NCBI RefSeq assembly: GCF_900186975.1
Contig: NZ_LT906441.1
Coordinates: 1,488,001 to 1,552,000, forward strand
Direction of reading: 5' to 3'
DNA length: 64,000 nt
Source of the DNA: Cutibacterium granulosum
GTDB taxonomy: Bacteria > Actinomycetota > Actinomycetes > Propionibacteriales > Propionibacteriaceae
Shown: positions 9,408 to 15,564 of the stretch, one piece after another
Numbering within the stretch: the stretch's first letter is position 1
Layout: each line of letters begins with the position of its first letter
The notes under the pieces: generated by a model
Database searches by the model: none
What the model saw: the letters and a program-made list of their open reading frames with translations, nothing else
Told to the model about the DNA's origin: nothing
Translations under genes and position numbers: made by a program

Positions 9408-10811
9408 TCAGATGTTGATCATCTCACCGGCAATGCCCTCGACAGCGTCCTTGATGGCCTCGGACATCGACGGGTGCGGGAAGATGTTGCGTCCCACCTC
9501 CTCGGTGGTGATGTCCCACATCTGTGCCAGAGTGAGTACCGGGATGAGGTCGGAGACGTCGTGACCGATGATCGTGGCGCCCAGCAGCTCGTTGTGGCGG
9601 GCGTCGGCAACGACCTTGACGAATCCCGATCCGTCCCCCACTCCCCAGGCCTTGCCGTTGGCGGAGAACGGGAACTTGTTGACCTTGACGTCGTAGCCCT
9701 TGTCCCTGGCCTGCTGCTCGGTGTATCCGAACGACGCGATCTGTGGCTGGCAGTAGGTGACGCGCGGGATCATGTCGTAGTTGATCGGCATGGTCTCGGC
9801 ACCCGCGATGGTCTCGGCGGCGACGACACCCTGGGCCTCGGCAGTGTGGGCCAGCATGAGCTTTGCCGTGCAGTCACCGATGGCATAGATGCCGTCGACA
9901 TTGGTGCGCATGAAGTCGTCCACGGCGATGGCGCCGCGCTCGGTGAGCTTGACCCCGGTGGTCTCCAGCCCGAATCCCTCGGTGCGTGGGGCGAATCCGA
10001 CGGCCTGCAGGACGCGGTCGGCCTCCAGCACCTGCGCATCGCCGCTCTTGGCCGGGGAGACGGTGACCTTGACCTTGTCACCGGAGTCGTCAATGGCGTC
10101 CACCTTGGTGGACGCCATGACCTTCACACCCATCCTCTTGTAGGCGCGGGTGAGCTCCTTGGAGACCTCGGGATCCTCGTTGGGGACCATGCGATCCAGG
10201 TATTCCACGATCGTCACCTTGGCTCCGTAGTTGGCCAGAACGTAGGCGAACTCTGTGCCGATGGCACCGGAGCCGGCAATGATGATCGACTCGGGGACCT
10301 CGTCGGAGAGGATCTGCTCGCGATAGGTGACGACCCGTTCGGACAGCTGGGTGCCCGGCAGCGTCTTCACCGACGAGCCGGAGGCGATGATGCAGCTGTC
10401 GAAGGTGAGTTCCTCACTCACCGCTCCCCCGTCGTCCTTGACGACGATCCCCCTGGGCCCAGTGAACTCGCCCCAGCCGTGGTACTCGGTGACCTTGTTC
10501 TTCTTCATGAGGTAGTGGATGCCATTCACCATGCGGCCGGACACGTCACGGGAGCGGGAGTAGGCCTTGCCGAAGTCAACGGTGACATCACCTGAGATGC
10601 CGAAGGTGCTGGCCTGCTTGGTGACGATGTTGGCGAGTTCGGCGTTGCGCAGGAGCGACTTGGTGGGGATGCACCCGACGTTGAGGCACACGCCGCCCCA
10701 GTACTCCTTCTCGATGATTGCGGTCTTCTTGCCAAGCTGTGCGGCGCGGATGGCGGCGACATAGCCACCAGGGCCGGCTCCGAGGACGACGACGTCAAAG
10801 TGTGAGCTCAT
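9408..10811 (-). CDS. lpdA: Dihydrolipoyl dehydrogenase (E3)
   Basis: FAD-dependent E3 of 2-oxoacid dehydrogenase complexes and/or the glycine cleavage system, reoxidising dihydrolipoamide with NAD+. At 467 residues it has normal length. FAD-binding [10 protein letters not shown] lies near the N-terminus, the redox disulfide motif [11 protein letters not shown] follows, then the NAD-binding [25 protein letters not shown], and the C-terminal FPHPSMSEA with the catalytic His-Glu region. The ATG at 10811, reading [11 protein letters not shown], is chosen over an upstream start because the family begins with this beta strand. It is divergent from the XRE-MurA gene. Confidence 0.95.
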
Positions 10812-10898
10812 GGGAACAACTTTAGTGTGAGATCGGCCACTCATGTGTCACTCGTATCACTTGTGTGCAGTTCTGCTGTGAGCTGGTTTGTGCTGTGC

Positions 10899-10925
10899 GG
10901 TGACGCATTTGTACCGCGCGTCACC
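10899..10925. promoter_or_regulatory. Inverted repeat, candidate operator
   Basis: Perfect 8-base arms GGTGACGC (10899-10906) and GCGTCACC (10918-10925) are separated by 11 bases. They lie in the divergent spacer between lpdA and the XRE-MurA gene, about 75 bases before the latter's GTG start. The size and symmetry suit a dimeric HTH regulator, and the adjacent gene encodes an XRE domain, so autoregulation is plausible. It is also possible that the hairpin acts in RNA. Confidence 0.45.
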
Positions 10926-10999
10926 TTGGTTCATCTCGCATGTGATATATCGTGGAGGGGTTACTGAGAGTCCCCGCGATCCGTCGAAAGGAATCTCCC

Positions 11000-12538
11000 G
11001 TGGACAACGTCAGCCCTGCATCCGTTGGACGCCTCATCCGTGATGCCCGCAAGCAGCGTGGTCTCACCCAGCACCAGCTGGCAGAACTGCTCAACACCTC
11101 CCAGAGCGCCATCCATCGCATCGAGGCCGGCAATCAGAATCTCTCCCTAGACTACATCAACCGGATTGCCCAGGCTCTGGAATCGCCACTGTTGACGACG
11201 CCGGGCACCGGCACGATGAACTACCTCATCGAGGGGGGTCACCAGCTCTCCGGTTCGATCGAGGTGCGGTCGTCGAAGAATGCCGCTGTCGCCCTGCTGT
11301 GTGCCAGCCTCATCAACCGCGGACGTACCGTGCTGCACGGCATCGCCCACATCGAGGAGGTCAACCGCATCCTCGAGGTGCTGCGCTCCATCGGCATGCA
11401 GACCGAGTGGTCCGACGACGGCGTCGATCTCACCCTGACACGCCCTGACGAGCTGTGCTTGGACCAGATGGACATCGACGCGGCACGACGCACCCGAAGC
11501 GTCATCATGTTCCTGGGCCCCCTGCAACGCGTCTACAAGGAGTTCAAGCTGCCCTACGCCGGGGGTTGCAACCTCGGGGCTCGTACCGTCGAACCCCACC
11601 TGCAGGTGTTGCGAGCCTTCGGACTGGAGGTCGTGGCCACTGAAGGATTCTACAACTGCCAGGTCAGTGAGGACGGCGACAAGAGCGGCGACCGGGAACG
11701 TCACATCGTCCTCACCGAGCGCGGCGACACCGTCACCGAGAACGCCTTGTTGGCCGCCGCTCAGACACCCAGCCTCACCGTGCTGCGCAACGCCAGCCCC
11801 AACTACATGGTGCAGGACCTGTGCGTCTTCCTCACCAAGCTCGGTGTGCGGATCGAAGGCATCGGTACGACCACCCTCAAGGTACATGGTGTGAGTGACA
11901 TCAACGCCGACGTGGAGTACTGGCCCTCCGAGGACCCGATCGAGGCGATGAGCCTCATGACGGCTGCCATCGTCACCGACTCCGAACTCACCATCGAACG
12001 CTGCCCCATTGAATTCCTCGAGATTGAGCTGGCCATTCTCAAGGAGATGGGGCTGAAGTATGAGCTCTCCTCGGAATATCCCTCCAACAACGACTTCACC
12101 CGGCTGGTCGACATCACCGTGTTCCCCAGCCACCTGATTGCAGTGGCCGACAAGATCCACCCCATGCCGTTCCCCGGCCTCAACATTGACAACCTGCCGT
12201 TCTTCGCAGTGATTGCCGCGCAGGCTCAGGGGCAGACCCTCATCCACGACTGGGTGTACGAGAACCGAGCCATCCACCTGGTCGACCTGGGAAAGCTCGG
12301 TGCATCCGTACAGCTGCTCGACCCCCATCGGCTCATCGTTCACGGTCCCACTCACTGGCGTGGCCGTGAACTCATCTGCCCGCCTGCCCTGCGTCCCGCT
12401 GTCTGTCTGCTGCTGGCCGCCCTAGCCGCCACTGGGGAGACAACTCTGCGGGACGTCTACATGATCAATCGCGGCTATGAGGACCTGCCCACTCGGCTCA
12501 ATGCTCTGGGGGCGTCGATCAGCGTCTTCACCGAGTGA
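11000..12538 (+). CDS. XRE-type HTH domain fused to a MurA-family enolpyruvyl transferase
   Basis: The GTG at 11000 is preceded by AAAGGA and gives 512 residues. Residues ~5-65 form a complete XRE helix-turn-helix (VGRLIRDARKQRGLTQHQLA, SQSAIHRIEAGNQNLS). The remaining ~440 residues are a full EPSP-synthase-like domain of the UDP-GlcNAc 1-carboxyvinyltransferase type. MurA landmarks are kept: SSKNAAVALL (the Lys-Asn of the active site), GGCNLGARTVEPH with the catalytic Cys and the following Arg, and FPGLNIDNLPFF carrying the Asp. The enzyme would add enolpyruvate to UDP-GlcNAc, the first committed step of peptidoglycan synthesis. The fusion suggests a moonlighting regulator or a MurA controlled through DNA binding. 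Whether the genome has a second, plain murA is unknown. Confidence 0.88.
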   Translation: MDNVSPASVGRLIRDARKQRGLTQHQLAELLNTSQSAIHRIEAGNQNLSLDYINRIAQALESPLLTTPGTGTMNYLIEGGHQLSGSIEVRSSKNAAVALLCASLINRGRTVLHGIAHIEEVNRILEVLRSIGMQTEWSDDGVDLTLTRPDELCLDQMDIDAARRTRSVIMFLGPLQRVYKEFKLPYAGGCNLGARTVEPHLQVLRAFGLEVVATEGFYNCQVSEDGDKSGDRERHIVLTERGDTVTENALLAAAQTPSLTVLRNASPNYMVQDLCVFLTKLGVRIEGIGTTTLKVHGVSDINADVEYWPSEDPIEAMSLMTAAIVTDSELTIERCPIEFLEIELAILKEMGLKYELSSEYPSNNDFTRLVDITVFPSHLIAVADKIHPMPFPGLNIDNLPFFAVIAAQAQGQTLIHDWVYENRAIHLVDLGKLGASVQLLDPHRLIVHGPTHWRGRELICPPALRPAVCLLLAALAATGETTLRDVYMINRGYEDLPTRLNALGASISVFTE

Positions 12539-12862: not shown

Positions 12863-13996
12863 TCACTGGGCGAGACGATGTGTCGCAGCGCCCTCCTGAA
12901 CGGTGAGCAGGTCCTGATGGGCGACGAGCGCCAGCTCGCCCGGCTCCTCGCTCTCTGGGGCGTCCGACGCGGTTGCCGACAGGACGAGCCAAGTCTGCTG
13001 GGTGGCTCGGGCCACGGCCTCGCTCAACCGTGCATCACTGTTCTTCTGCTGGCCGTGCAGCAGCCCTGCCAGCAGAAGGGCTGCGAAGAGGTCACCGGAG
13101 CCACTGAAATGCCTGGACAGTGTGGGGGTGCTGCACACCCAGGCTGAGTTGGGTGTCACCGTCATCACATGGGTCTGATCCTCGGGAAGATCCGTGGTTC
13201 GTACTGAGGTGACGACCACCGCACGCGGTCCGGCAACCGTGGCTCCAGATGCACGGGGTCGGAAAGGATTCTGACCCGTCGTGTGGGACATCACGTGCCA
13301 TGTTCCGGCGTGGTGTTCGGCATCGTCTCTCGCTGACCCCATGAGTGCTGACCCCATGAGTGATCGCGCGGCGGCAATCACTTCGGCACATGTGGGCATT
13401 GAGTTGCCGTCTCCCCGGGTACTGGTTGTGGCCGTGTCCCCTGGACGACTCGTGGGCCCCGGGCAGGTCGCGAGTCCCGGATGATCCGTGAGCATCGCGA
13501 GCTCGAAAAGGTTCGGTGTGATGATGTCCGCAGCCGGGACGACGAGCTCGTGCATCATCTGCACCACACCGTCGCTGACGTAACAGCGGCCGTCGTCACC
13601 CATGACCGGGTCGCACAGGTAGTGTCCTGCCCCTCCCCTGGCGCGGATCTGCTGGACGGCATCGACGACGACTGGCCCGCTCGTCTCGGTGAGGTATCCC
13701 GACAGGACGGCGTCACACCGTCCGAGGAAACCGTTGTGCCCCAATGATCGCAGTACGGCACGAAGATCCTGGGCGTTCACCGGAATCGATCCCACGTTCG
13801 GGTACCCGTTGTGGTTGCTGAGCACTGCCGTGGGAAGCGAGATGACCTCGACTCCATTGCGCTGCAGCGGGAACACGGCTGCGCCGTTGCCGACATGCCC
13901 GCCACACACCTGGCTCTGGGCCGAAAGAACTGTGGGTGTGGTGATGGTGGATGGGGGGATGGATGCCATGCCACGATCATGGCACGTGTGTTCCAC
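12863..13996 (-). CDS. pdxY: Pyridoxal/pyridoxamine kinase-like protein with an insertion
   Basis: Ribokinase-fold kinase that phosphorylates pyridoxal to PLP (vitamin B6 salvage). It shows PdxY features: SLPTAVLSNHNGYPN near 53-67, LSGYL, CDPVMGDDG, TPNLFELAML and the C-terminal SGSGDLFAALLL with the catalytic Asp. The protein is ~377 residues against a usual ~285. The excess sits at about residues 175-255, a Pro/Ser/Thr/Gly-rich low-complexity insertion that includes a tandem LMGSA duplication. The start is uncertain: GTG at 13996 or ATG at 13969. The N-terminal SQVCGGHVGNGAAVFPLQR matches the family substrate loop. Activity despite the insertion is likely but unproven. Confidence 0.82.
   Translation of the reverse strand: MEHTCHDRGMASIPPSTITTPTVLSAQSQVCGGHVGNGAAVFPLQRNGVEVISLPTAVLSNHNGYPNVGSIPVNAQDLRAVLRSLGHNGFLGRCDAVLSGYLTETSGPVVVDAVQQIRARGGAGHYLCDPVMGDDGRCYVSDGVVQMMHELVVPAADIITPNLFELAMLTDHPGLATCPGPTSRPGDTATTSTRGDGNSMPTCAEVIAAARSLMGSALMGSARDDAEHHAGTWHVMSHTTGQNPFRPRASGATVAGPRAVVVTSVRTTDLPEDQTHVMTVTPNSAWVCSTPTLSRHFSGSGDLFAALLLAGLLHGQQKNSDARLSEAVARATQQTWLVLSATASDAPESEEPGELALVAHQDLLTVQEGAATHRLAQ
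13332..13361 (-). repeat. 15-bp tandem duplication inside the pdxY-like gene
   Basis: The 15-mer GCTGACCCCATGAGT occurs twice head-to-tail (13332-13346 and 13347-13361). It adds five residues in frame, giving LMGSA LMGSA. The copies are identical, so the duplication is recent. It lies in the low-complexity insertion of the kinase. Confidence 0.85.
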
Positions 13997-15231: not shown

Positions 15232-15564
15232 GTGGCTGATCGGGCTCTGCGAGGCATGGGACTGGGTTCCAAGAGCTTTGAGGACGAAGAGGGCGTCGAG
15301 ATGGCTGAGCGGAAGGAGGTCGGTTTCGACTGCGCCAATGGCCACCATTTCGAGATCACCTTTGCCATGGAAGCCGAACTACCAAGCCTGTGGGAGTGCC
15401 CACGTTGCGGAGCAGAGGCCACCCGCAGCGATGGGACCGACCCCGAGCGCAAGGCCCAGAAACCACAACGCACCCATTGGGACATGCTCACCGAGCGTCG
15501 CAGTATTCCTGAGCTGGAGGAGCTGCTCAGCGAACGGCTCGAGGAAATTCGCAAGAACGACTGA
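15232..15564 (+). CDS. rbpA: RNA polymerase-binding protein RbpA
   Basis: A 110-residue actinobacteria-specific transcription activator that binds the principal sigma factor and RNA polymerase and stabilises the open complex. The N-terminal arm is MADRALRGMGLGSKSFEDEE. The core domain has the zinc-type FDCANGHHFEITF and WECPRCGAEA, where only three of four Cys ligands are obvious. The basic linker is followed by the sigma-interaction domain, THWDMLTERRSIPELEELLS. The GTG start has AGAGGAG at good spacing. Confidence 0.96.
   Translation: MADRALRGMGLGSKSFEDEEGVEMAERKEVGFDCANGHHFEITFAMEAELPSLWECPRCGAEATRSDGTDPERKAQKPQRTHWDMLTERRSIPELEELLSERLEEIRKND

Follow-up and report, generated by a model that had tools for sequence, protein, structure and literature searches.

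The MurA of Cutibacterium granulosum, as in many other actinobacteria, is fused to an XRE helix-turn-helix domain (HTH). Our comparison with about 160 relatives suggests that this domain recognizes a single palindrome in the promoter of its own gene, and this protein, XRE-MurA, therefore very probably controls its own production. We think it likely that XRE-MurA is a trigger enzyme that, through its XRE domain, represses the murA promoter from which it is expressed. As in known trigger enzymes, a single polypeptide contains an intact enzyme domain and an intact DNA-binding domain, judging by its sequence. Also, by comparison across genomes, a putative operator lies in the promoter of its own pathway. 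We describe the gene within a 64,000-nucleotide stretch of the chromosome (“the window”).

One uninterrupted open reading frame (10952-12538, + strand) joins an N-terminal XRE HTH to a MurA domain (Table 1). The frame, the matches to Pfam, and the catalytic residues all confirm the preliminary description of a full XRE HTH joined to a catalytically complete MurA. The likely start codon is GTG 11000, which is preceded by AAAGGA in near relatives as well, so the extent proposed there was right. We preferred this start over the GTG at 10952 because the latter overlaps the -10-like box. The HTH scores 49.9 bits against Pfam’s HTH_3 model (the gathering score is 23), which places it in the XRE/HTH_3 family, and the remainder of the protein matches EPSP_synthase (E = 5.5e-47). 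An AlphaFold2 model, built on an alignment of 33 orthologs, has a mean pLDDT of 86.9. It shows four helices in the HTH, low confidence across the linker (aa 65-69), and a MurA fold, which aligns with solved MurA structures at TM-scores of about 0.9 when normalized by target length. Among the aligned orthologs, the HTH and the MurA domain are equally conserved (mean column entropy of 0.76 vs. 0.74), and the linker is not conserved. The flanking genes, as named from their translations, encode dihydrolipoamide dehydrogenase (9408-10844, - strand) and a ThiD/PdxK-like kinase (12863-13996, - strand). Another open reading frame in the window (15232-15564, + strand) has a translation that, by eye, resembles the RNA polymerase-binding protein RbpA of actinobacteria.

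Table 1. Features of the XRE-MurA gene and its promoter. Positions are within the window.
Feature	Position	Strand	Basis
Weak -35-like TTGGTT, 16 bases before the -10-like box (inferred)	10926..10931	+	Read from sequence
Palindromic operator (putative), genus variant CATCTCGCATGTGATATA of TATCTCA-N4-TGAGATA	10932..10949	+	Upstream of 147/147 HTH-intact orthologs
-10-like box TATCGT overlapping the operator (inferred)	10948..10953	+	TAnnnT here in 131/147 orthologs
Shine-Dalgarno-like AAAGGA	10987..10992	+	Read from sequence; common to congeneric genomes
XRE-MurA coding sequence, 512 aa, GTG start	11000..12538	+	ORF reading; family models; start shared with congeneric genomes
XRE helix-turn-helix, aa 13-64	11036..11191	+	Pfam HTH_3, E = 3.3e-13; four helices in AlphaFold2 model
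Recognition helix TSQSAIHRIE, aa 33-42	11096..11125	+	Kept in 147 palindrome-bearing orthologs, lost in 15 without palindrome
Variable, probably flexible linker, aa 65-72	11192..11215	+	pLDDT <50 at aa 65-69; high column entropy
MurA (enolpyruvyl transferase) domain, aa 74-509	11219..12526	+	PRK09369, E = 1.2e-94; MurA structure matches
Catalytic Cys codon, Cys190 (E. coli C115)	11567..11569	+	Alignment; Cys in 54/54 orthologs

XRE-MurA is the only MurA in the cell. The genome is a single contig of 2.18 Mb (99.75% complete), and PF00275 matches just two of its genes, XRE-MurA and AroA, so the other match is not a second housekeeping murA. A direct protein search of this near-complete genome, which also encodes MurB, found no MurA paralog. 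The preliminary description had asked for such a check. Because XRE-MurA is the only MurA in a near-complete genome that contains MurB, it is almost certainly the housekeeping MurA.

To judge by family models, XRE-MurA is a divergent MurA: it scores above the cutoff for PRK09369, the NCBIfam model for the MurA subfamily (317.4 vs. 297 bits), but below the cutoff for the MurA equivalog TIGR01072 (300.3 vs. 392.7 bits). K22, N23, R91, C115, R120, D305, R331, R371, and R397 are all present and are invariant in the aligned orthologs. (Residue numbers are those of E. coli MurA, mapped onto XRE-MurA by alignment.) The catalytic Cys is retained regardless of whether the HTH of the ortholog is intact or decayed (see below). 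Clade-specific residues take the place of D369 of classical MurA and of parts of the UDP-binding motif, and the clade has a signature of its own (GGC[DN]LG.RT[VI]EPH, SEDPIEAM, and FPGLNIDNLP). By elimination, as the only MurA-type gene alongside MurB, XRE-MurA should be a divergent but active enzyme that supplies the cell’s UDP-GlcNAc-enolpyruvate. As an aside, 13 of 20 ordinary actinobacterial MurAs (loci L052-L071) have Asp in place of the catalytic Cys, and every XRE-MurA keeps the Cys. This replacement is linked to fosfomycin insensitivity.

The fusion did not arise by chance in one genome, because orthologs are present in 56 of the 57 genomes that we sampled from the Propionibacteriaceae. 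We saw no ordinary MurA in those 57 genomes. In another family of the same order (f2), all 15 genomes have the fusion, again as the only MurA. Genomes from families f18 and f19, which we assigned to the Streptomycetaceae and Micromonosporaceae by comparison with named loci, mostly have both the fusion and an ordinary MurA, at around 31-34% identity. In f19, the ordinary MurA is of the Asp type, so those genomes hold one Cys-type and one Asp-type MurA. Named genera with the fusion include Acidipropionibacterium, Tessaracoccus, Microlunatus, Aeromicrobium, Streptomyces, Kitasatospora, Humibacillus, Piscicoccus, and Hamadaea. So similar fusions do exist in other actinobacteria, as had been suggested. 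In a phylum-wide sample, near-full-length matches were found in this class only; the next-best matches (in genomes G340 and G321) lack the XRE domain. An apparent split gene in genome G244 contains masked or unknown sequence instead.

When upstream regions are placed side by side, the palindrome TATCTCA-N4-TGAGATA is found at nearly the same position in every ortholog that we read. In our first set, 53 of 55 upstream regions contain it with at most 4 mismatches (of 14), which is reached by about 2% of shuffled sequences. The two exceptions are a gene at the end of a contig and an ortholog with a decayed HTH. In a set from named genomes, which overlaps partly with the first set in species, all 62 upstream regions of genes with the HTH motif have the palindrome with at most 3 mismatches; just 1 reaches that in sequence further upstream. 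The site in the window has three mismatches and is unremarkable on its own (0.6 such sites are expected in 64 kb). In 131 of 147 cases, the palindrome’s last two bases open the TAnnnT box. In most lineages, the start codon is only a few bases beyond this box, and the spacing suggests that the murA transcript may be leaderless there. Cutibacterium and the nearest genera have a short leader, with the Shine-Dalgarno-like sequence, between the -10-like box and the start codon. Just upstream of the -35-like box in the window is a perfect 8-bp inverted repeat (GGTGACGC-N11-GCGTCACC, 10899-10925). It is absent from the congeneric upstream regions that we compared, and it is possibly the site of a second regulator.

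Evidence that the XRE domain recognizes this palindrome is that the two occur together. We added 40 loci to those compared before, which include 80 named loci, and we considered an HTH to be intact if it had 14-16 of 16 key residues or decayed if it had 10 or fewer. Every ortholog that could be scored fell into one of these two groups. The palindrome is upstream of all 147 orthologs with an intact HTH (144 with at most 3 mismatches and three with 4) and of none of the 15 orthologs whose recognition helix was lost. Among the 80 named loci, 11 fail the motif for the recognition helix: three are near-intact variants that keep the palindrome, and eight have lost both traits. The association has P ~ 2e-21 (Fisher exact test), but this figure ignores the relatedness of the genomes. 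On a tree of the MurA part of the protein, each trait requires four changes, which always occur together, and three of these are forced by strongly supported branches. A sign test on the three supported pairs is not significant (P = 0.25), and could not be, because there are so few independent co-losses. One further ortholog, L083, was too short for the tree and is probably another co-loss. By this reconstruction, there were three or four joint losses of recognition helix and palindrome.

The decayed orthologs (L083, L139, L144, L145, L148, L149, L154, L155, L205, L226-L230, and L235) are from genera that include Propioniciclava, Micropruina, and Propionicicella. They keep the scaffold of the HTH without the residues of the recognition helix or the palindrome, and could be viewed as natural knock-outs of the proposed autoregulation. 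Since the scaffold persists in these lineages, the XRE domain may have another (structural) role besides binding DNA.

The palindrome is nearly confined to the fusion gene. The C. granulosum genome contains a single copy of the genus variant without mismatches, at the XRE-MurA promoter. We also searched 196 genomes from the class for the exact pattern and tallied the results from two tables. The exact palindrome is present in 54 of the 60 genomes with the fusion and in just 10 of the 136 genomes without it (P ~ 6e-31). In all 54, an exact match lies where the fusion gene starts; there were only three further exact matches among those listed. Six fusion genomes have no exact match: in five of them the site is a variant, and in the sixth (G125) the HTH has decayed. 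Near the fusion gene of G244 (locus L251), the palindrome occurs twice, at positions 2145 and 3308 (about 1.2 kb apart). A similar palindrome, ATCTCAACGTTGAGATA, is found between divergent genes for an MFS transporter and a MarR-type regulator in G181 (locus L111, around 1501-1517). It is also present in other large actinobacterial genomes that lack the fusion, and it is probably an operator of the MarR type. A palindrome that is nearly single-copy, at the fusion gene, is the signature of autoregulation and not of a regulon.

How might autoregulation work? The MurA domain would make UDP-GlcNAc-enolpyruvate for peptidoglycan. From the comparative evidence, we infer that the 18-bp palindrome is bound by the N-terminal XRE domain, probably with two copies at each site. 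The bound protein would then overlap both the -10 box of the murA promoter and its spacer. In this way it would obstruct RNA polymerase, which would give negative feedback on the level of MurA. The preliminary description offered two options: that the protein could sense either UDP-GlcNAc or PEP to control transcription, or that it is the main MurA with autoregulation. It is the second option that is strongly supported, as XRE-MurA is the only MurA and as the conserved, almost single-copy palindrome is in its own promoter and goes together with an intact recognition helix. We saw no sign of a wider regulon. The linker, which is variable and predicted to be flexible, fits simple feedback on the level of the protein no worse than it fits tight allosteric coupling. 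Ligand-driven dimerization or occlusion is also possible.

Could XRE-MurA be a housekeeping MurA whose HTH is inert or serves structure only, and could some other conserved regulator bind the palindrome? Lineages that lack the DNA-contacting residues and the palindrome do keep the scaffold. Also, other regulators may act at this locus: in Streptomyces coelicolor, a DmdR1 site is predicted between SCO5998 and SCO5999 (PMC12161575). Nevertheless, we consider this explanation unlikely, as the recognition helix and the palindrome co-occur perfectly and are lost jointly, and as the palindrome follows genomes with the fusion instead of genomes in general. The inert N-terminus that was raised at the outset is contradicted by this co-occurrence, except in the roughly 15 decayed orthologs. 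The sign of regulation could be reversed, with the XRE domain activating murA, since some XRE regulators are activators. However, the site overlaps the -10-like box and the spacer, where a bound protein is expected to block RNA polymerase; we therefore favor repression and give activation little chance.

XRE proteins often control several genes, and some genomes have a few extra palindromes, so XRE-MurA might instead be the transcription factor of a wider cell-wall regulon. This is very unlikely: in nearly every genome, the promoter of the fusion itself holds the best site, and the other copies are few and are not shared between genomes. One of them is inside a frame for a HAD-phosphatase-like protein, and another is the one between the MFS transporter and MarR-type genes. 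Least probable of all is a MurA domain that acts on a substrate other than UDP-GlcNAc. The altered UDP-binding motif, the loss of D369, the score under the TIGR01072 cutoff, and the existence of NikO-like enolpyruvyl transferases would fit such a change. But this genome and this family have no other MurA-type gene, MurB is present here, and lineages with one MurA have the same signature as lineages with two. On balance, we retain the autorepressing MurA.

We compared XRE-MurA to known systems. It has the fold and the catalytic residues of MurA (as in PRK09369 and TIGR01072), and it differs from other MurAs by its XRE domain, its signature motifs, and its lower score against TIGR01072. In Streptomyces coelicoflavus, the gene for XRE-MurA is divergent from an aconitase gene (as named from its translation). 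In S. coelicolor, SCO5998 (MurA2) adjoins acnA (SCO5999) (PMC12161575). Because of this shared position, we identify the Streptomyces XRE-MurA with SCO5998. Unlike C. granulosum, Streptomyces also has an ordinary MurA. The literature that we found names SCO5998 as MurA2 and does not mention an XRE domain.

The model enzyme-repressors BirA and PutA combine, as we propose for XRE-MurA, a metabolic enzyme and a DNA-binding repressor tied to its pathway in one polypeptide (PMC6978683). Their enzymes and DNA-binding folds are different from those of XRE-MurA, and their control by effectors is established. BzdR has an XRE head on a shikimate-kinase-like domain (PMC3602430); the protein senses benzoyl-CoA and is not active as a shikimate kinase. 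XRE-MurA likewise joins an XRE domain to the fold of a metabolic enzyme, but it keeps the catalytic residues. By sequence, its HTH resembles XRE autoregulators of the HipB type (the couple_hipB model) and the C-protein type. The operator of HipB (TATCC-N8-GGATA) is also 18 bp, with the same TATC/GATA ends. HipB is autoregulated, as we propose for XRE-MurA, but it is an antitoxin with several operator sites, instead of one site and an enzyme domain. No HipA-like toxin gene is among the immediate neighbors of the XRE-MurA gene, so it does not look like a HipBA-type toxin-antitoxin system.

We found no description of the function of the XRE-MurA fusion in the literature that we searched (which did not extend to subscription papers or preprints). 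As far as that literature reaches, a trigger enzyme would be new for peptidoglycan synthesis. MurA is the entry point of that pathway and is the target of fosfomycin. If our proposal is correct, then an autorepressing MurA would be a widespread and compact means of feedback on cell-wall synthesis in propionibacteria and Streptomyces, acting through a defined operator of 18 bp. It would also predict where the supply of substrate or fosfomycin might alter the expression of murA, and it would provide a ready-made reporter promoter.
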